Source of the DNA: Nocardiopsis salina YIM 90010
GTDB taxonomy: Bacteria > Actinomycetota > Actinomycetes > Streptosporangiales > Streptosporangiaceae
Direction of reading: 5' to 3'
Length of the DNA stretch: 38,979 nt
NCBI RefSeq assembly: GCF_000341025.1
Contig: NZ_ANBF01000124.1
Span: forward strand, 14,741 to 53,719
Part shown: positions 17,871-38,508 of the stretch, piece by piece
Layout: each line of letters opens with the position of its first letter
Numbering within the stretch: position 1 is the first letter of the stretch
Made by a program: the position numbers and the translations under genes
Notes under the pieces: generated by a model
The model's input: the letters and a program-made list of their open reading frames with translations, nothing else
Database searches by the model: none
Told to the model about the DNA's origin: nothing

Positions 17871-18317
17871 GGGTGCTCCGTAGGGGGTCTCGCGCCGGCC
17901 CGGGGGAGGGCCGAACAGAACGACGAATCAGTGCGATCCGGTGATCCATCGCACACCATGACATGTGATACACGACACCCCAACCGCTGGGGGCGCCTTT
18001 TCCCTGTTCGCCCCACATGACCTGAACGAACGGTCGGTCTTCGGCGTCGCCCGGCCCGGGACGATCTTGCTGGGCCTGGACACGCAGGATCGGCCGCACA
18101 TGGTGTTGGACCTTCTTCGGGGGAAGAGCAGGGGTGCCTGTTGCACACCGATCGCGACGCCGCGGGCCGGTACATGCCGACCTCGAGCAGCCCGGAGCCC
18201 TCCGGCCACTGATTCGTGTCGGTGGGTTCCGGGTAGCGCGCCACCGAGTCCGTTTTCTCCCGTAGCTGGGACAGAAGCGGATCGGGCTGACGAACAGCAT
18301 CAATGGGGGGATCAGAA
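17871..18317. other. 447-base divergent intergenic region, no gene supported
   Basis: The region separates the symporter (minus) from the CBS protein (plus). Open frames exist but have poor codon character and no ribosome sites. Near 17950-17985 there is an AT-richer patch with CATGACATGTGATACACGAC, probably part of the symporter promoter. The last 15 bases contain GGGGGGATCAG, the ribosome site of the CBS gene. I found no convincing RNA gene or long palindrome. Confidence 0.4.
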
Positions 18318-30793: not shown

Positions 30794-32848
30794 CTAGAGC
30801 CCGACGACGGCGGGTTGCGCGAGCGCGACCTGTTCGCCTGCCGGGTGCGATTGGCGGATGGTGTTCATGGCTCGGATGACGGTGAAGGTCTGGGTCCGGT
30901 TGCTGCCGCTGATGTCGGTCACCCGCATGACCTCGCCACCGCACCGGATGTCGAAGGGGAGTTCGTCGGGGAATTCGGCGCTGGTGATCCAGCGCGGCCC
31001 CCGGTAGGTGGTGACCTCGAAGACGGCGGTGTCCTCCTCGACGGCGACGGCCAGGCGCGCGTCGGCGGTATCGCACCTGTTGGGCTGGTTCTCGCCGGGG
31101 TCGGCCTCTTCGCCTTCCTCCTCAACCAGGGCCTGGCCGACGATCCACGGGGCACCGGGGCTCGCGTTGAATTCCACATCCCAACGGTAGGCATTCAGGG
31201 TCTCGGTGTATCCCTCGACCAACAGGTCGATGGGTTCAGGCGGGAGCCACGGCGGGGGGTTGAGCACAGTCAGGCCGTCGCCTGTGTCGCGATCGGACAC
31301 GATGTCGACCAGGTGCGGGTTCCCGACCAGGTTCACGCGCACGTGCGGGTACCGGTAGCCCTCGGTGGTGCCGAGGTGCACGCGCCACGACGCTTGTGCG
31401 CCGAGCTGTTCGTCTCGCTGCACGTCGAGCGTCACGGATTCCTCGTAGGGACCGACGCCCTCGGGAGGGTGTGCGGCGCCCAGCGGGCCGTCGAGAAGTT
31501 GATATGTCTCCTCGCCGCCGTCTCGGCGTGTGGCCTGCACGGTGTTGACCAGGCCGTCATCGTCGTCTGTCGGCTCGAAGGGCGGTGCCAGGTGCCCGGC
31601 GGCGTAGTCGAGCGCCAGGACCTCGTCGGCGCGCACGACCATTCGTGCTCGTACCTGAACTCGCGTGTGCACGCCGACCGTGACATGCCGCGTCGCCGGG
31701 GCCGTGGCCACCGCGCGCACGGGTGCCGTCAGCGGTATCGAGGTCGAGCGCGTCACACCCAGCTCGGCCCGAGCAGCCAGGCGCGCGTGCGCCGAGACGG
31801 CGCCCTCCTCGGTCTCTCCCTCGGCTACGACCGAGACACGCAGACGTGCGTGTGCCGATCGGACCGGCCCTGGTGCGGGACCCAGTGGCGCCGAGTCCGA
31901 GACGGCTACGTGGGAGAGGAAAACCTGGGGCGGGTAGTCGTCGGGATCTGAATCCACTCGCAAGGCGAGGTCGACGGCGGCGAGCGTCTCGGGTCCGGCG
32001 TACCCGTCAGCGAGAAGGGCGTGGTCGTCCTGAAAGGCGATCACGGCGGTGATCGTCTCGCCGCCGTAATCGCCGTCGTCGCCGAACTGCGGCAACTCGT
32101 AGCCGAGCGCCATCAGGTCGCGTTGTAGGTCTCCGACCGCGCCGTCAGTGGTCCCGTCGTTGTCGCCGGGGGCGAGCAGCACGTTTCGCCGGTAGCGGTA
32201 GCCGGTCAGTTCGAGCGTGCCGCCCAGCTCGACGTCGTCCCACCGGTGCACGCGCGCACCCGAGGCCGCGTGACCGGGGAACACACGTGAGGTCAACCCG
32301 TGGCCGTCATAGTGGAGTTCGACGCGCCACCACTGGCCGACCGCTACGGCCGACCCTGATTCGCTGGTCCATCCGATCGACGGCGAGGCGAGCCCGGACG
32401 GCTGCAACCTGGTTCCGACGTTGCCGCCGGCGGTCTCGTGCACGACCAAGCCCAGACCTACATCGGGCCACCCGACCAACCACCGAACCTCGTGAATGCC
32501 GTGTCCGGCGGTCTGCATGGGAGGAATCCAGGCGTAGAACCGCACCCACCATTCGGTCTCGGCATGATCCTCCTCGTCGTCCTCCTCGTCTTGGGTCTCG
32601 TCGTCGGGAGTTTGGGGAAGCTCAAGCACGTACCGCGGCTGTTGGGTGAAGGAGTACCCGGGGTCAATGCGTGTCGTCGCGAGGCCGTGCACGGTGTGCT
32701 CGGCTGAGAATCGGGCACGTCCGACACCGATCGGACCGGTCGTGTCGGCGGCCTCGAGGGTGCCGACGATCGCCGACCGTTCCAGGGTGTCCTCATCGGG
32801 CGCCTCGCCCAGCGGGCCGTCGAGCCGGTTCGCGACCGTCGTCGCCAC
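30794..32848 (-). CDS. Composite tail-tip protein: lectin-like/peptidoglycan-binding N-terminus and detached tail C-terminus
   Basis: A 684-residue protein. The N-terminal ~320 residues look like a concanavalin-type jelly roll (TEWWVRFYAWIPP, VGQWWRVELHYDGHGLTSRV) interrupted by a peptidoglycan-binding-like unit (GAVGDLQRDLMALGYELPQF, GDYGGETITAVIAFQ). An Ala/Arg/Val-rich repetitive stretch follows. From about residue 413 (LDYAAGHLAPPFEPTDDDD; near 31612) the sequence is the usual C-terminus of the tail protein whose N-terminus is the gene ending at 33215, running to the typical VMRVTDISGSNRTQTFTVIR. The GTG at 32848 follows AGGGGG. Confidence 0.75.
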   Translation of the reverse strand: MATTVANRLDGPLGEAPDEDTLERSAIVGTLEAADTTGPIGVGRARFSAEHTVHGLATTRIDPGYSFTQQPRYVLELPQTPDDETQDEEDDEEDHAETEWWVRFYAWIPPMQTAGHGIHEVRWLVGWPDVGLGLVVHETAGGNVGTRLQPSGLASPSIGWTSESGSAVAVGQWWRVELHYDGHGLTSRVFPGHAASGARVHRWDDVELGGTLELTGYRYRRNVLLAPGDNDGTTDGAVGDLQRDLMALGYELPQFGDDGDYGGETITAVIAFQDDHALLADGYAGPETLAAVDLALRVDSDPDDYPPQVFLSHVAVSDSAPLGPAPGPVRSAHARLRVSVVAEGETEEGAVSAHARLAARAELGVTRSTSIPLTAPVRAVATAPATRHVTVGVHTRVQVRARMVVRADEVLALDYAAGHLAPPFEPTDDDDGLVNTVQATRRDGGEETYQLLDGPLGAAHPPEGVGPYEESVTLDVQRDEQLGAQASWRVHLGTTEGYRYPHVRVNLVGNPHLVDIVSDRDTGDGLTVLNPPPWLPPEPIDLLVEGYTETLNAYRWDVEFNASPGAPWIVGQALVEEEGEEADPGENQPNRCDTADARLAVAVEEDTAVFEVTTYRGPRWITSAEFPDELPFDIRCGGEVMRVTDISGSNRTQTFTVIRAMNTIRQSHPAGEQVALAQPAVVGL

Positions 32849-32864
32849 AGCGCACCCCCTATTC

Positions 32865-33218
32865 CTATTCGGCATTCTCGAGGCTGATCGTCAGCGGGTC
32901 GATCGTGAGAGTCCCCGAGGAGGGGAAGGGCTGGGGCTCATTCAGTCGTGCCGAGCCCTTCCACGTGCCGCCCGAGCCCCAGAATCCAATGTGCGAGACG
33001 GTCGTGTCCGAGGGCACCGAGAACGTGACCCCCGACGAGGCAGTCAAAGTCCCGCCCGAAGCGTCAGACCAAGTGACCGACTGGCGCGAGTAGGCGCCGC
33101 CGTCGACCTCGGCCGAGCCCCTCGAGTCGGGTAGTGAAGTGTGCAGGCTGGCCGACACTGCGGTCTCTGCGCCGGTGTCCAGCATCGGGTCGAAGAAGTC
33201 GGCGACGAAGTTCGTCAC
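32865..33218 (-). CDS. Phage tail fibre-like protein
   Basis: A 117-residue beta-rich protein with the pattern of small actinophage tail-fibre proteins: NFVADFFDPML, SASLHTSLPDSRGSAEVDGG, AYSRQSVTWSDASGGTL, and TVSHIGFWGSGG, ending in a TLTIDPLTISL strand. It is probably an adhesion or tail-tip component. The GTG start overlaps the previous stop by 4 bases (GTGA). It lies inside the segment that seems to split the upstream tail protein. Confidence 0.7.
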   Translation of the reverse strand: MTNFVADFFDPMLDTGAETAVSASLHTSLPDSRGSAEVDGGAYSRQSVTWSDASGGTLTASSGVTFSVPSDTTVSHIGFWGSGGTWKGSARLNEPQPFPSSGTLTIDPLTISLENAE

Positions 33219-34609
33219 GACGACATCCCTCCTTGGTTCGTGAGTGTGGCGCCGCGGTTGTACTTGCTGCGAAGGGTGCGGTAAGCCAGGCCGGCGCGTG
33301 CGCGGCTCTCGTAGAGCACGCCGCCGTCGACGGCCTGCGCGGAGTAGAGAAGATCGAGCACGCTGTCGGGGTACTGCGGTCCCATACGAAGCGAATCCTC
33401 GGGTTCGCCGACCAGGTCCAACGGAATGTCGGCCTCCTCGCACAGGCGGATGATCCGCTCGGCCGCGCGTTCGCCGGCGAAACCTCGGAAGGCGGCGAAG
33501 GAGTCGGCCGCAGTGGGGTAGGCGGCGGAGTTGGTGTTCCAGAGCGACACATGCCCCAGCTCGGCCGGGCTCGACGTGTCGTCGTCGGGAACCCACCAGT
33601 GATAAGTCAGGGTGCGCGCGGGTAGTGCCGGAGCCGACCAGGTGCCGCTCGTGAGGGTGGCGCCGTCCATGTAGAGGCGGTACGTCGACGAGCTGTTGTT
33701 GGACGACAGCTCGAACCGGTACAGGTGCGCCTCGTCATCGAAGGCACTCGGGACCGAGAAGTCTGGTTCGACCATCGCGATCGAGGAACTGTCCTCGGTG
33801 GTGGTCTGGATACTGATGAACATCGACCTCGTCGAGATCTCCCAGCCGACCGACCACGTCCGGTACGGGTCTGAGTTGGTTCCTGACCCCTGCATGGCGA
33901 TCGCGAGGCTGTCGAAGCCCCCGCCTTGGCGCGCGATCTCGACGGCCCAAGACCTCGAAGAGGGGGCCGGCCGCACGCTCGCGGCCAAGCGTCCCCGTTC
34001 CTGTTCGGGAAGGCGCATGACCGGGTCGAGCCACGGACCCAGCTCGCCCTCGGCCCAGTCGGCGCCATAGGTGATGGCGGTCGCCCCGGTGCCAGCGGCA
34101 TAGGTGCGCATCGGTTGCTGACCGACGACCGGCGACCCCTGTCGAGCGGTCTCGCCGTCCGTCAGCGGCCAATAGGCGTCCGGCCGATGCGCTAGGAGGA
34201 ACCGCCGGTACACGTCAGGCAGGTTGGCCGCGGACTGCCCGAGGCGTCGCAGGATGCCGTGCGCCTCGATCTCCACCCACACGTCGTTTCCGGACAGGTC
34301 CCAGCGCACCGGCCAGGACGACACTTCACCGCCGAACCGCCACCGTGTACCGGCCGAGGTCTCGACGCCGAGCCGGATCGGGGTATTCTTCCCGACCCGG
34401 CGGAACAGCGGCGACCTCGGGTTGCCCGGCGAGTATTCGCCGTGCCTGTTGTTGAGCTGGAACGACAGGGTAGACGGGTCGACCTGGGCGCCCTCGTCGG
34501 CGCGGCCGCGCACAATCTGCGCGTCTTCGCGCGTGCGGACGTCACCGGTGATGTTCAGCCACTCGCCCGATCGTGTTTGGATCTCCACGCGCAGGCGGAC
34601 CCTGGCCAC
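33215..34609 (-). CDS. Tail protein, N-terminal half, with LamG-like insert
   Basis: A 464-residue protein starting ARVRLRVEIQTRSGEWLNIT, then DPSTLSFQLNNRHGEYSPGN, the classic opening of a conserved actinophage tail protein. A LamG/concanavalin-like domain (about 140-350; TYRLYMDGATLTSGTW) follows. It ends abruptly after SKYNRGATLTNQGGMSS. In intact relatives the chain continues directly into an LDYAAG..APP segment, which here lies 1.6 kb downstream in another gene. The GTG start is 3 bases after the tape-measure stop in transcription order. Confidence 0.75.
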   Translation of the reverse strand: MARVRLRVEIQTRSGEWLNITGDVRTREDAQIVRGRADEGAQVDPSTLSFQLNNRHGEYSPGNPRSPLFRRVGKNTPIRLGVETSAGTRWRFGGEVSSWPVRWDLSGNDVWVEIEAHGILRRLGQSAANLPDVYRRFLLAHRPDAYWPLTDGETARQGSPVVGQQPMRTYAAGTGATAITYGADWAEGELGPWLDPVMRLPEQERGRLAASVRPAPSSRSWAVEIARQGGGFDSLAIAMQGSGTNSDPYRTWSVGWEISTRSMFISIQTTTEDSSSIAMVEPDFSVPSAFDDEAHLYRFELSSNNSSSTYRLYMDGATLTSGTWSAPALPARTLTYHWWVPDDDTSSPAELGHVSLWNTNSAAYPTAADSFAAFRGFAGERAAERIIRLCEEADIPLDLVGEPEDSLRMGPQYPDSVLDLLYSAQAVDGGVLYESRARAGLAYRTLRSKYNRGATLTNQGGMSS

Positions 34610-34612
34610 GGT

Positions 34613-36850
34613 TCACCCCCTACCGAATGCGGTCTGAACCGAACCGCGGCCGTCGACCTTGACCATCTTGCGGATCATGCGCTTCAACTCGCCATCGCCG
34701 CCGGTGACGTCGACGACCACCCGTGCGGGGTTGCCGCCTTCGCGAACGGCCCGGTTGACGTTGGTCGGGATCGAGCGGGCGACGTCGCCCAGGGCGTCGC
34801 CGGTGCGTCCCAGCCGGTCGTCGAGCGGGCGCATGAGTTCGTCGGCCGCGCGGTCGATCGCGGTCAGCTCCGACATCACGCCTTCGCCGAGGGTCTCGGC
34901 GATCCGGGCGCCGGACACCTCGGGTGCGCCGTCGCCGCTCATGGGGCCGACCTCGGCCGGTGAGAACGGCAGGTAGCCCCTGATCGTCGAGGCGACGTTC
35001 GACATCGTGCTTCCGATGTTCGAGATCATCGACTTGATCCCGTTGATCAGGCCCTGGATCACTGATCGGCCCGCGTTGCGAAGCAGCGAGCCGAGGTTGC
35101 CCAGGGCTGACGTGATGCGGCTCGGGATCGACTGCACGAAGCTGATCAGGTTCTGGCCCTGCTGCTGTGCCCGCTGGTACAGGCCCCGGAAGTAGTCGCC
35201 CACCATGCCCGGAAGCTGGGCGAGGCGACCAATGAAGGCGATCACGTTGGTCACCAGCCCGACCACGAAGGCCACGGCGGCGTCGACCCCGGCTTGGAAG
35301 CCGGCGGCGATCTGGTCCCAGTACTGGATTACGAGGCCGATCAGCGTCCAGTTCAGGAACAGGTCAATGATCCAGTCGAGGGCGGACGACAGGATGTCCA
35401 TCAGCCAGTCCCAGGCGGCCCGCGTGGCTGCAACGATCTCGTCCCAGTAGACGATCACGAGCGCGATCACGGCGATCAGGGCGAGGATGCCCAGAACGAT
35501 CCACGTGATCGGGTTCGCGAGGAACGCCGCGTTCAACAGCCACTGCACACCGACCCAGGCCAGGGTCAGCCCGCGGACGACCGCCATGATGCCCTGGTAG
35601 ACCTTCAGTCCGATCACGACGGCGGCGACAGCCGCGCCGATGGCGACGATCGCGATCGCGAGGCGGGTCATGGTCGCCTCGTTCTCACCGACCCAAGTCG
35701 CGAGCGACTGGAACGCCGACAAGGCCGTGGTGGTCAGCCAGTTGATCACGGGCTCGGCCGCTGACGACAGCGAGCCCCAAAGCCCGGTCACGGTCTCGCG
35801 GAAGGTGGCGCTGTTCTGCCAGGCGTACCAGAACGCCCCGGCGAGCAGGGCGAGCCCGGCGACCAACCAGAACACCGGCGATCGCAGGAACGCCAGGGAC
35901 AGGGCATTCTTCGCCCTCGTCGCACCCTGGATGACGGTCGTCGCGCCCTTCAGGATCGGCCCGAGTGCCATCAGCGGAAGCGCGAGCGACCCGGCGGCGT
36001 CGGCGAGGCCGCCGTACCGGAACATCAGGTCCTGAACCCGATCCTGTAGGTCCTGAAGCGGGGTCGAGGTGTCGTTGGCGGCATCGGCCAATTCCTGTGT
36101 GAGACCCGGGGTTGGCTCGACGGCCGTCTGGTAGTTCTCCCACTCCTCGGCGGTCAGCCCGAGGACGTCGAGGAACTCGCCCATGTCGCCCTCGCTGTCG
36201 GCGACGGCTCGACGGAACTCGCGAACGGACTCCTGGCCGCTGTACCCCTGGTCTCGGAAGTACTCGACACCGGCGGCGGCGTCATCCAGCCCGAACTCGA
36301 GCGCTTGCAGCTCGTCGGGCACGCGCCCAAGGTTGCGTTCGAGCGTGCCCAGCGGGATATCGGTCTGTTGGATCAGGCGCGACATCTGGTCCGCGTTGTC
36401 GCCGACGTCTGAAAGGTCATCACCGAAGGGCACCAACAGCCGGTCGGCGGAGCTGATCGCGCTCGGCAAGTCCTTGCCGACCGCGTCGCCGAACTGGCCG
36501 ACCGCCGGAAGGATGGCCTCGAACTCCTGTTTGGTGTCGAAACCCTTCTGTGCCAGCAGCTCCATACCGTCGGCGGCGGCTTCGGCGCCGCCGGTGTGAT
36601 CGGCCATCGCGTAGGCCGATGCGCGTAGGGCTTCCTCATTCTCGCCCGAGGCGATCGCCGTCCGCGCGAGGCTCGCGTTGACGTCGGCCTGGCCGCGGGC
36701 GAAGGCTTCCATCGAACCGCCGGCGGCCACACCGGCGGCGGTGATCTTGCCGATGTTGTCCTCGACGGCTTGGGCCGCTTTGCCCAGTCCGGACTCGAGG
36801 TCGTCGGCATCAGCGCCGATCCGAACGGTGAGTTCGTCGAGGGTGACCAC
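34613..36850 (-). CDS. Tape measure protein
   Basis: A 745-residue protein that sets tail length. The N-terminus (TLDELTVRIGADADDLESGL, followed by GKAAQAVEDNIGKITAAG) is typical. The middle holds several hydrophobic stretches (PVFWLVAGLALLAGAFWYAW, RLAIAIVAIGAAVAAVVIGL, ITWIVLGILALIAVIALVIV), and Trp-rich repeats such as WDWLMDILSSALDWIIDLF. The C-terminus (FSPAEVGPMSG) is also characteristic. It is the longest gene of the tail block and lies directly after the chaperones, as in most siphoviruses. At 745 residues it would imply a fairly short tail. Confidence 0.92.
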   Translation of the reverse strand: MVTLDELTVRIGADADDLESGLGKAAQAVEDNIGKITAAGVAAGGSMEAFARGQADVNASLARTAIASGENEEALRASAYAMADHTGGAEAAADGMELLAQKGFDTKQEFEAILPAVGQFGDAVGKDLPSAISSADRLLVPFGDDLSDVGDNADQMSRLIQQTDIPLGTLERNLGRVPDELQALEFGLDDAAAGVEYFRDQGYSGQESVREFRRAVADSEGDMGEFLDVLGLTAEEWENYQTAVEPTPGLTQELADAANDTSTPLQDLQDRVQDLMFRYGGLADAAGSLALPLMALGPILKGATTVIQGATRAKNALSLAFLRSPVFWLVAGLALLAGAFWYAWQNSATFRETVTGLWGSLSSAAEPVINWLTTTALSAFQSLATWVGENEATMTRLAIAIVAIGAAVAAVVIGLKVYQGIMAVVRGLTLAWVGVQWLLNAAFLANPITWIVLGILALIAVIALVIVYWDEIVAATRAAWDWLMDILSSALDWIIDLFLNWTLIGLVIQYWDQIAAGFQAGVDAAVAFVVGLVTNVIAFIGRLAQLPGMVGDYFRGLYQRAQQQGQNLISFVQSIPSRITSALGNLGSLLRNAGRSVIQGLINGIKSMISNIGSTMSNVASTIRGYLPFSPAEVGPMSGDGAPEVSGARIAETLGEGVMSELTAIDRAADELMRPLDDRLGRTGDALGDVARSIPTNVNRAVREGGNPARVVVDVTGGDGELKRMIRKMVKVDGRGSVQTAFGRG

Positions 36851-36871: not shown

Positions 36872-37222
36872 TCATCTGGGTGTGTACTTGCCAGAGGTCC
36901 CGCCGTGTTTGGCGTTGAGCTGGCGCAGCATGGCCAGTTGCTGGTCGGCGGTCTGGGGCGCCTGGTCCCAGGTCGGAAGGAAGTCCTTCGGCGTCGCCTT
37001 GCGCGTCTTGCGGTCCCTGTTCGCGTTGGTGATCGTGGCGCACAGGAGCGCGTTCAAGATGTCGTCGCGTTCGGGGCCGAGGGTGCCGGCGATCTCCTCG
37101 TATGCGATCCAGTCGGTCAGCTCGGCCGAGGAGACTCGGGCGAGTAGCTCGGCGACAGGGATGCGCATGTGCGCTGCTAGTCGGTGGTAGAACCGTCGCT
37201 CGGGACGGCCTCGGATTTTCCC
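36872..37222 (-). CDS. Tail assembly chaperone gpT-like frame, reached by -1 frameshift
   Basis: The known part, from MRIPVAELLARVSSAELTDW to ATPKDFLPTWDQA, matches gpT/DUF4035-type proteins (WIAYEEIAGTLGPERDD). An ATG at 37168 exists, but the frame is open further upstream and encodes RRFYHRLAAHMRIP, which relatives also have, so the domain starts before that ATG. It joins the gpG frame at a GGGAAAA heptamer (37216-37222). I therefore start it at the slip site; translated alone it would be 98 residues from 37168. The fusion chaperones the tape measure protein during tail assembly. Confidence 0.75.
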   Translation of the reverse strand, partial: GKIRGRPERRFYHRLAAHMRIPVAELLARVSSAELTDWIAYEEIAGTLGPERDDILNALLCATITNANRDRKTRKATPKDFLPTWDQAPQTADQQLAMLRQLNAKHGGTSGKYTPR

Positions 37223-37251
37223 TTGGCCTCCTCCTTGGCCTCCTTGGTCAT
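37177..37251 (-). other. C-terminal segment of gpG in the shifted frame
   Basis: This frame reads MTKEAKEEAKGKSEAVPSDG and ends with TAG. It continues upstream as RIAQRLSG, the normal continuation of gpG proteins after RLY. Its ATG overlaps the stop of the upstream gpG frame (ATGA), so 24 residues could be made by re-initiation. It carries the slippery heptamer. It is separated from the main gpG frame by an apparent one-base deletion near 37275-37282. Confidence 0.6.
37216..37222 (-). promoter_or_regulatory. -1 ribosomal frameshift slippery heptamer GGGAAAA
   Basis: On the minus strand G-GGA-AAA lies in the frame of the gpG C-terminal segment, codons GGA and AAA preceded by G. This is the X-XXY-YYZ form used by lambda-like G/GT genes (lambda uses GGGAAAG). 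A one-base backward slip continues into the open gpT frame. Confidence 0.75.
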
Positions 37252-37583
37252 GCCGGAAAGGCGCTGTGCGATCCGTACAGCCGCTCGATCACGGCGCCGG
37301 ACTTTCGGCCGAGCTTCGCCACGTCCTTGTCGGAGAACAGGCGCTCGTCGCTCTCGGGGTCGAACAGGCACTTGACGACGAGCTTGGTCCTGAAGTCCTG
37401 CAAGCGAAGTTCGACGTCCTGACCCTGATTCTTCAGGGCGACCGCCTTCGCCTCGTAGGCGTCTCGGTCGGTGCCGGACAGGCCGCGCACGCGCACGACG
37501 AGGCCGCCCCACTCGGGCACCGCCTCGTCGACCTCGGGAAGGTCGTCAGCTTCCAGAATCTGGTCGCGCAGGGAGGTTGTCAC
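37248..37583 (-). CDS. Tail assembly chaperone gpG-like, frame disrupted near its end
   Basis: A 111-residue frame with TSLRDQILEADDLPEVDEAV, LSGTDRDAYEAKAVALKNQG, and LVVKCLFDPESDERLFSDKD then VAKLGRKSGAVIERLY, all typical of actinophage tail assembly chaperones. After RLY the frame reads GSHSAFPA and stops, while the expected RIAQRLSGMTKEA lies in the -1 frame. Inserting one base after TAC would restore a full protein ending at 37177. This is a real indel, a sequencing error, or a second recoding site. The GTG start overlaps the tail-tube stop (GTGA). Confidence 0.75.
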   Translation of the reverse strand: MTTSLRDQILEADDLPEVDEAVPEWGGLVVRVRGLSGTDRDAYEAKAVALKNQGQDVELRLQDFRTKLVVKCLFDPESDERLFSDKDVAKLGRKSGAVIERLYGSHSAFPA

Positions 37584-38077
37584 TGGTCGTCTCCGTTCTC
37601 GCCGTCGTCGCCGCCACCGTTGCCGTTGTCGTCCTCACCGTTGCCGGGACCTTCGCCCGGCCCCAGCTCGGACAGGTCAGGTTTACCGGAAACCTTGAAG
37701 GTGATCGAGGTTTCCAGCTTGTCGTCGTGCGGTGCGCTGGGTTCATAGCCGGTCACGAAGGCGTCGAAGGTCCATGCGTGCCGCTCGGCGGTAGGTAGGA
37801 CGATGCGGTACCGGTGAACCTCGTCGTCCTCGAAGTCCTCCATCACCCAGTCGTCGTGACGACTCGGCCGGTAGTTGCAATCCACGGACACCTCGCCGCC
37901 ATCGCGCAGGCCCGGGACGAACTCCATGTAGCCGTCCGGGCTGTCGTGATCGGTGACGTCGATGTCTTCACGGGACAGGCTGGGAAGGTCGATGCTGGTC
38001 GCGTTCGACAACTGGTCCCATTCGCCGTTGCCGTCGCTCCGGTAGAGCTTGGTACCGAAAGCGTTCTTGCCCGCCAC
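37580..38077 (-). CDS. Major tail tube protein
   Basis: A 165-residue tail-tube subunit: AGKNAFGTKLYRSDGNGEW, LSREDIDVTDHDSPDGYMEF, GGEVSVDCNYRPS and RYRIVLPTAERHAWTFDAFV, with a conserved strand ETSITFKVSGKPDL. The last ~25 residues are an acidic Gly/Asn/Asp-rich tail (GNGEDDNGNGGGDDGENGDD) that is probably disordered and surface-exposed. A GTG at 38077 is chosen because AGGAGGGG lies at proper distance; a GTG at 38083 would overlap the upstream stop. It precedes the chaperones, as is standard. Confidence 0.85.
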   Translation of the reverse strand: MAGKNAFGTKLYRSDGNGEWDQLSNATSIDLPSLSREDIDVTDHDSPDGYMEFVPGLRDGGEVSVDCNYRPSRHDDWVMEDFEDDEVHRYRIVLPTAERHAWTFDAFVTGYEPSAPHDDKLETSITFKVSGKPDLSELGPGEGPGNGEDDNGNGGGDDGENGDDQ

Positions 38078-38079
38078 GG

Positions 38080-38508
38080 TCACCCCTCCTCGTCTTCTGG
38101 TTGTTCGGTGTTGATGCGGAACCGCACCGGGATATGCCGCGCGTGCGGCGGTTGCGGGTCCCGAAGTGTCTGGGCGAACTCGAACCGAACCGCGGTCACG
38201 ACCCACTCGGCCGCGTGCAGCGGCATGGGCTGGTGGTCGAGGAGCTGCACGACACGGTCGGCGACGGCATTCGCCTCGTCGAAGGTCTGTTGCTGGGACC
38301 ACACGTGCAGCGTGTGCGTGCTGTTGCGGCCGATCCCGCCGTGCCAGTTATCCGGGGTCTCGGTCGCCTCGCCCAGGACCACATAGGGCATGGGCGCGTC
38401 CTCGGGCACCTGGTCGTACACAGCCGCGCCCAGGCCCTCATCGGTGTTCAGGCGTTGGTAGATCGCCCGCTGGATCGCGGCCAGGGGCGACCGTGCGGTG
38501 ATGCTCAT
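38080..38508 (-). CDS. Tail terminator / DUF3168-like protein
   Basis: A 142-residue protein with RSPLAAIQRAIYQRLNTDEG at the start, VYDQVPEDAPMPYVVLGEAT in the middle and THTLHVWSQQQTFDEANAVA near the end of the core, the DUF3168 pattern of tail-completion proteins in HK97-like and gram-positive siphoviruses. It caps the tail tube and joins it to the head. The ATG overlaps the previous stop by 4 bases (ATGA). Confidence 0.85.
   Translation of the reverse strand: MSITARSPLAAIQRAIYQRLNTDEGLGAAVYDQVPEDAPMPYVVLGEATETPDNWHGGIGRNSTHTLHVWSQQQTFDEANAVADRVVQLLDHQPMPLHAAEWVVTAVRFEFAQTLRDPQPPHARHIPVRFRINTEQPEDEEG

Follow-up and report, generated by a model that had tools for sequence, protein, structure and literature searches.

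Organization of the tail module

The window, which is the whole stretch of 38,979 nucleotides of Nocardiopsis salina YIM 90010 analysed here, contains part of a prophage whose tail genes lie on the minus strand. Its tail module comprises, in this order, a major tail protein gene, a gpG-like gene, a gpT domain and the tape measure gene (Table 1), which places the gpG and gpT frames between the tail tube and tape measure genes. The real start of the major tail protein is probably near 38077-38083, as the homologue in the prophage on contig C237 of the same genome aligns from 38077. A tail terminator gene is also part of the module, at the right end of the window on the minus strand. Genes for terminase, portal, protease, capsid, connector, terminator, endolysin and integrase are all present. 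Those for connector, capsid, protease, portal, terminase and integrase are located on the contig beyond the window, and the prophage therefore looks complete. The host assembly is a draft of 5.8 Mb in 272 contigs. Two ORFs of the minus strand, 33215-34609 and 30794-32875, correspond to neighbouring segments of phrog_5313, 437-796 for the first and 794-1051 for the second. These two matches are about 1.6 kb apart, and a single protein of 1268 aa in the C237 prophage matches both.

The gpG-like ORF is homologous to phrog_344 (tail assembly chaperone; E 6e-20), while its score against PF06222 (16.9 bits) is below the 25-bit cut-off. Its GTG forms a Shine-Dalgarno duplex of -9.3 kcal/mol, which is beyond the 5th percentile of the background (-8.8). 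The gpT domain belongs to the gpT family, with a match to PF06223 (Phage_tail_T) of 1.3e-20 and 74 bits for a cut-off of 25.9, and it also matches phrog_337.

Table 1 Features of the gpG/gpT locus and its neighbours (positions of the window).
Feature	Position	Strand	Basis
ORF with major tail protein, upstream neighbour	37580..38302	-	phrog_158, 8.8e-22
gpG-like tail assembly chaperone, 111 aa, GTG 37583 to TGA 37250-37248	37248..37583	-	ORF, phrog_344
Zone of one-base register change	37270..37277	-	tblastn with C237 gpG; alignment with 12 relatives
gpG C-terminal segment in second frame, carries the heptamer, ends at TAG 37179-37177	37177..37275	-	C237 gpG, relatives
SD-like AAGGAGGAGG upstream of heptamer, possible stimulator	37227..37236	-	sequence; duplex -12.2 kcal/mol
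Slippery heptamer G-GGA-AAA	37216..37222	-	sequence, phase, relatives, synonymous codons
gpT domain as it would be read after -1 slip (IRGRPERRFYHRLAAHMRIPVAEL...), stop TGA 36874-36872	36872..37215	-	PF06223, phrog_337
ATG of apparent separate gpT ORF	37166..37168	-	ORF; no Shine-Dalgarno
Tape measure protein, downstream neighbour	34613..36850	-	phrog_58, 8.5e-39

The heptamer and its reading frames

The first-pass annotation had proposed a -1 frameshift signal, G-GGA-AAA, leading from the C-terminal frame of gpG into a frame that is open through gpT. The heptamer GGGAAAA is indeed present, on the minus strand, which had not been specified. According to the sequence and the ORF map, its codon phase is G-GGA-AAA, and this phase is the frame of the ORF 37512..37177. 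The heptamer frame (frame b) is open from 37545 to its TAG. A -1 slip at the heptamer does enter the gpT frame, which is open over 37288..36875 and has no stop before its TGA. In this copy, the step from the heptamer frame to the gpT frame is thus -1, and the step from the gpG ORF to gpT is +1.

Among 2758 codons from eight other genes of the window there is one in-phase canonical heptamer (Y = A or T), so that 0.013 would be expected in the 37-codon overlap. When the overlap was shuffled 5000 times with its dinucleotides preserved, 4.4% of the shuffles contained an in-phase canonical heptamer and 1.8% contained GGGAAAN. Taken alone, this excess over chance is only moderate evidence for a slip site. 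The slip site is convincing because it is conserved in relatives, and not on chance statistics alone. The minus strand has a second GGGAAAA at 18004, which is not part of the tail module.

Conservation of the junction in relatives

The related loci comprise those of the host genome itself and of other genomes in the same GTDB family, the best 80 of 303 confirmed relatives in IMG/VR, one locus from GTDB species genomes and several GenBank phages; two of the other searches contributed up to 30 loci each. GTDB genomes were searched by family and by order; the matches listed for the order search all fall in the same family. The resulting 154 sequences are 153 loci and the window slice, the window itself being present several times. 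A G/T pair is absent from 13 of them, and the remaining 141 reduce to 96 distinct junctions. The 94 usable junctions do not include L096, in which the gpG match ends early, or L117, in which a long distance separates G from T.

In this set, which includes the best 80 of the 303 IMG/VR relatives, gpT is at -1 of gpG in 93 of the 96 distinct junctions, L096 being assigned by phase arithmetic. Two junctions (L025 and L117) are in frame, and a single one, that of this copy, is +1. Clustering at 85% identity reduced the 94 junctions to 69 clusters, 67 of which are -1 only; the remaining two are a cluster that mixes -1 junctions with the in-frame L025, and this copy. In L025 (G103:C23), a single uninterrupted frame spans G and T, and a G run is longer by one G than in the related L021 and L085 (GGGGGAATGA); the two genes may be naturally fused in frame, or the homopolymer may contain an error.

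Of the 96 junctions, 93 have a slip motif 21-30 nt ahead of the gpT anchor. The offset before the anchor RRFYHRLA is -24, -21, -27 or -30, and it is -24 in this copy. The motifs are GGGAAAC (32 junctions), GGATTTC (21), GGGAAAA (17, including this copy), GGGGGAA (7), GGGTTTC (6), AAAAAAC (5), GGGAAAT (3) and GGGTTTT (2), with none in 3; GGATTTC and GGGGGAA were added to the motif types after inspection of the junctions. The XXXYYYZ form is found in 65 of the 96. G-GAT-TTC takes the place of the canonical heptamer in 21 junctions (L008, L019, L027, L050, L054, L056, L068, L071, L101, L107-L111, L115, L119, L140, L142, L143, L147 and L148), and the literature matches listed contain no phage example of frameshifting at GGATTTC or GGAUUU. 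Among eukaryotic RNA viruses, an umbravirus is reported to use G_GAU_UUU and others to have sites of the G_GA type (PMC5009743).

Within the genome itself (G000), three gpT-family matches, on contigs C124, C237 and C29, belong to related tail modules, all with GGGAAAA at the G/T junction. In the two other prophage copies, GGGAAAA lies inside an intact gpG.

Codon usage at the slip site

For the codon test, sites were picked by their amino-acid pair only, from a list of pairs that was drawn up after inspection. A listed pair is present at the site in 68 of the 69 clusters, and the codons are slippery throughout. Glycine is encoded by GGA in all 40 clusters with Gly-Lys or Gly-Asn, compared with 6.2% elsewhere in gpG. 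The same holds for Lys AAA (12/12 clusters; background 5.0%), Asp GAT (11/11; 9.6%), Gly GGT before Phe (8/8; 13.3%) and Gly GGG before Glu (5/5; 12.2%), and Lys before Asn is AAA in 4/4 clusters. The binomial P values of this test are too small, as the clusters are not fully independent. The nucleotides at the slip site plainly appear to be kept beyond what the amino acids require.

The SD-like region upstream of the heptamer is stronger than upstream control stretches in 64 of the 69 clusters. Against synonymous-codon shuffles it is stronger in 44 of the 69 (p 0.25), which is no excess; an SD-like stimulator under selection was rejected, the match being explained by amino-acid content. Downstream of the heptamer in this copy, a small hairpin (z -0.42) is no better than shuffles, and five shorter folds have z values from -0.69 to 1.21. 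No consensus pairs were obtained for the RNA across relatives, from a rough alignment with ragged ends.

The gpG frame and the one-base register change

As sequenced, the gpG frame that starts at 37583 stops 25 nt short of the heptamer. The last approximately eight residues of this ORF (GSHSAFPA) are out of register and unlike those of relatives, and the heptamer is in frame only with the C-terminal piece RIAQRLSGMTKEAKEEAKGKSEAVPSDGSTTD, which ends at the TAG. This C-terminal segment is 53% identical to C237 gpG over 30 residues. The two candidate tails were each scored against the gpG C-termini of 92 of the 96 junctions, the window itself (L001), L096, L117 and L025 being omitted. The 32-residue tail of frame b outscores at least 99% of its own shuffles against 89 of the 92, and the 8-residue tail of frame 0 does so against 1 of the 92. 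At equal length (8 residues each), frame b outscores frame 0 in 85 of the 92. A raw-score comparison, which gave 92 of 92, was set aside because tails of 32 and 8 residues cannot be compared fairly in this way. The piece in the heptamer frame is therefore best identified, from its relatives, as gpG's own C-terminus, and an in-phase X_XXY_YYZ heptamer is present near the end of G in this frame.

A tblastn search with C237 gpG gives a match in frame -2 that extends to 37275 and continues in frame -1 at 37272, and in the alignment with 12 relatives the sole one-base gap is that of this copy, between 37273 and 37272. In the sequence as it stands, ribosomes translating gpG would thus not arrive at the slip site in the required frame: G is not open from its start through the heptamer, and T is not at -1 of the gpG ORF. 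The proposal that the heptamer lies in the C-terminal frame of gpG thus stands with regard to the segment that matches 89 of the 92 relatives, but not with regard to the ORF that starts at 37583. It follows from the frames that this copy, as sequenced, would not make GT by the gpG start and the heptamer slip alone. One +1 shift leading directly from gpG into gpT does not account for the data, since upstream of the heptamer it is frame b, and not the T frame, that matches the gpG C-termini.

One way to reconcile both frames would be a second recoding event, a -1 step near 37273 followed by the -1 step at GGGAAAA. Both frames are coding on either side of the break, and two -1 steps would give a full GT protein. 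However, the stretch from 37288 to the stop of gpG contains no XXXYYYZ heptamer in gpG phase, and none of the 93 other usable junctions has a +1 relation, so we consider this highly improbable.

Two further explanations can be offered for the register change. It may be an assembly or sequencing error, in which case the real prophage would have an intact gpG and a working -1 site. The draft state of the assembly and the fact that this copy is the sole +1 among 96 junctions point in this direction. So does the comparison with the C237 prophage, of which eight other ORFs, full-length tape measure included, hit the coding strand of tail and lysis genes of the window and reveal no within-gene frame change. 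We give this explanation a little short of an even chance. The register-change site is, however, not in a long homopolymer, and the one further record of the prophage that was found, UViG_2551306679_000004 in IMG/VR, carries an identical sequence. This record seems to derive from the same assembly and is therefore no independent check; no independent copy of the prophage was found in IMG/VR, the only record being the one with the window's own sequence.

The change may equally be real, with gpG inactivated by prophage decay and the slip site left as a relic. Prophage genes are often inactivated, the same data are compatible with this explanation, and a second tail gene differs in its arrangement between the window and the C237 copy. 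Conversely, the absence of any other frame change in the eight genes compared with C237 speaks against decay, and the head and integrase genes, which are long ORFs with strong profile matches, may do so as well. We regard such an inactivation as a serious candidate, at close to even odds.

The apparent start of gpT

The first-pass annotation had also proposed that gpT does not start at the ATG at 37168 and that conserved residues, RFYHRLAAHM, precede this codon. The ATG is a poor start, with a duplex of -0.4 kcal/mol compared with a background median of -3.4 and with -9.3 for the GTG of gpG. A start codon is found at this position in 4 of the 94 junctions, this copy included, and one or two residues later in 49 of the 94. 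Some gpT start codon exists within the first 28 codons in 67 of the 94, of which 3 reach -8 kcal/mol, and there is none in the other 27. Within RFYHRLAA, the 15 sequences aligned show no variation at the R and the A of RLA, and conservation of F and L is 90% or more. The T domain is thus without a start signal of its own, and the conserved residues upstream of the ATG, together with the lack of a ribosome-binding site, favour the fusion.

The early gpG stop overlaps an ATG in the heptamer frame (ATGA 37251-37248, minus strand), which is a possible stop-restart point; this ATG is without a Shine-Dalgarno (duplex +1.2 kcal/mol). A separate gpT could in principle be made from the ATG at 37168, or by stop-restart at this ATGA followed by the -1 slip. 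Both ATGs are present, and four GenBank records, Yara (L005), Dryad (L006), Rooney (L165) and P1312 (L008), annotate G and T as separate genes. The two ORFs of some actinobacteriophages (some Microbacterium phages) are reported to be separately expressed, with no evident frameshift (PMC7302621). Nevertheless, the weak duplexes at both ATGs, the conserved residues upstream of 37168 and the junctions without any start codon make a separate gpT quite unlikely, and three of the four separate-gene records carry a motif at the slip position (GGGAAAC in Yara and Dryad, GGATTTC in P1312). For these three, a joined CDS may therefore be missing from the annotation, and annotators should consider a joined CDS in relatives where G and T are listed separately.

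Proposed function of the locus

Based on these observations, we are confident that this siphophage prophage, which otherwise looks complete, contains a lambda-type G/GT locus whose slip site is stranded by a one-base change near 37273. In the relatives, translation would usually terminate where gpG ends, whereas a small number of ribosomes would shift by -1 on G-GGA-AAA close to this end and continue into gpT. The resulting GT fusion would link the tape measure and tail tube proteins, a role that is established for lambda and that probably applies here. The junctions of the relatives strongly support this mechanism, in which a GT fusion results from a -1 slip at G-GGA-AAA.

In this copy, the register change near 37273 ends gpG at 37248, before the heptamer, and leaves the site stranded, probably because the prophage gene was inactivated recently or because the assembly is wrong at this point. 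The claim that gpT is made as a GT fusion by a -1 slip is well supported for the mechanism and for the relatives, including the two other copies of the same genome, but does not apply to this copy as sequenced, in which gpG ends before the heptamer. The register change could also be both real and tolerated, if a second recoding or a stop-restart at the ATGA restored the functions of gpG and gpT and the slip at GGGAAAA served a free, short-headed gpT; we would be very surprised if this were so.

The G/GT frameshift signal thus extends to this actinobacterial prophage group, with a very strong synonymous-codon constraint at the site. The locus also illustrates that the right local phase of a heptamer is not equivalent to a usable frameshift, and that the upstream frame needs to be traced back to a start codon.

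Comparison with known systems

A literature search on tail assembly in Nocardiopsis prophages returned no match. Among the closest known systems are the gpG and gpGT tail assembly chaperones of phage lambda (PMC5009743, which cites Xu, Hendrix and Duda 2004). The locus resembles that of lambda in its location between the tail tube and tape measure genes, in the -1 relation (here in the relatives), in having a G-GGA-AAN heptamer close to the gpG C-terminus and in a gpT of PF06223. In contrast, the heptamer ends here in A, whereas that of lambda ends in G, and gpG is here out of frame before the site. The lambda -1 shift has been described with its 30:1 ratio and the roles of gpG and gpGT, as has the wide conservation of the G/GT frameshift in long-tailed phages (PMC5009743).

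Microbacterium phage Bush (cluster GA) is reported to have a working programmed -1 shift at GGGAAAA (PMC11749239). Bush is a different phage with the same heptamer and the same tail assembly chaperone pair. GGGGGAA is likewise reported as a common motif (PMC10274946). Streptomyces phages Dubu and phiSASD1 and Rhodococcus phage Jflix2 have homologous G and T, a motif at the same place and an annotated joined CDS. They differ from this copy in their intact gpG and in their heptamers, which are GGGAAAC, GGGAAAC and GGGTTTC, respectively. Given lambda, Bush and the literature on GGGGGAA, the mechanism, the gene pair and the heptamer were already known, and the locus is one more member of the known G/GT class, with its gpG out of frame in this assembly.
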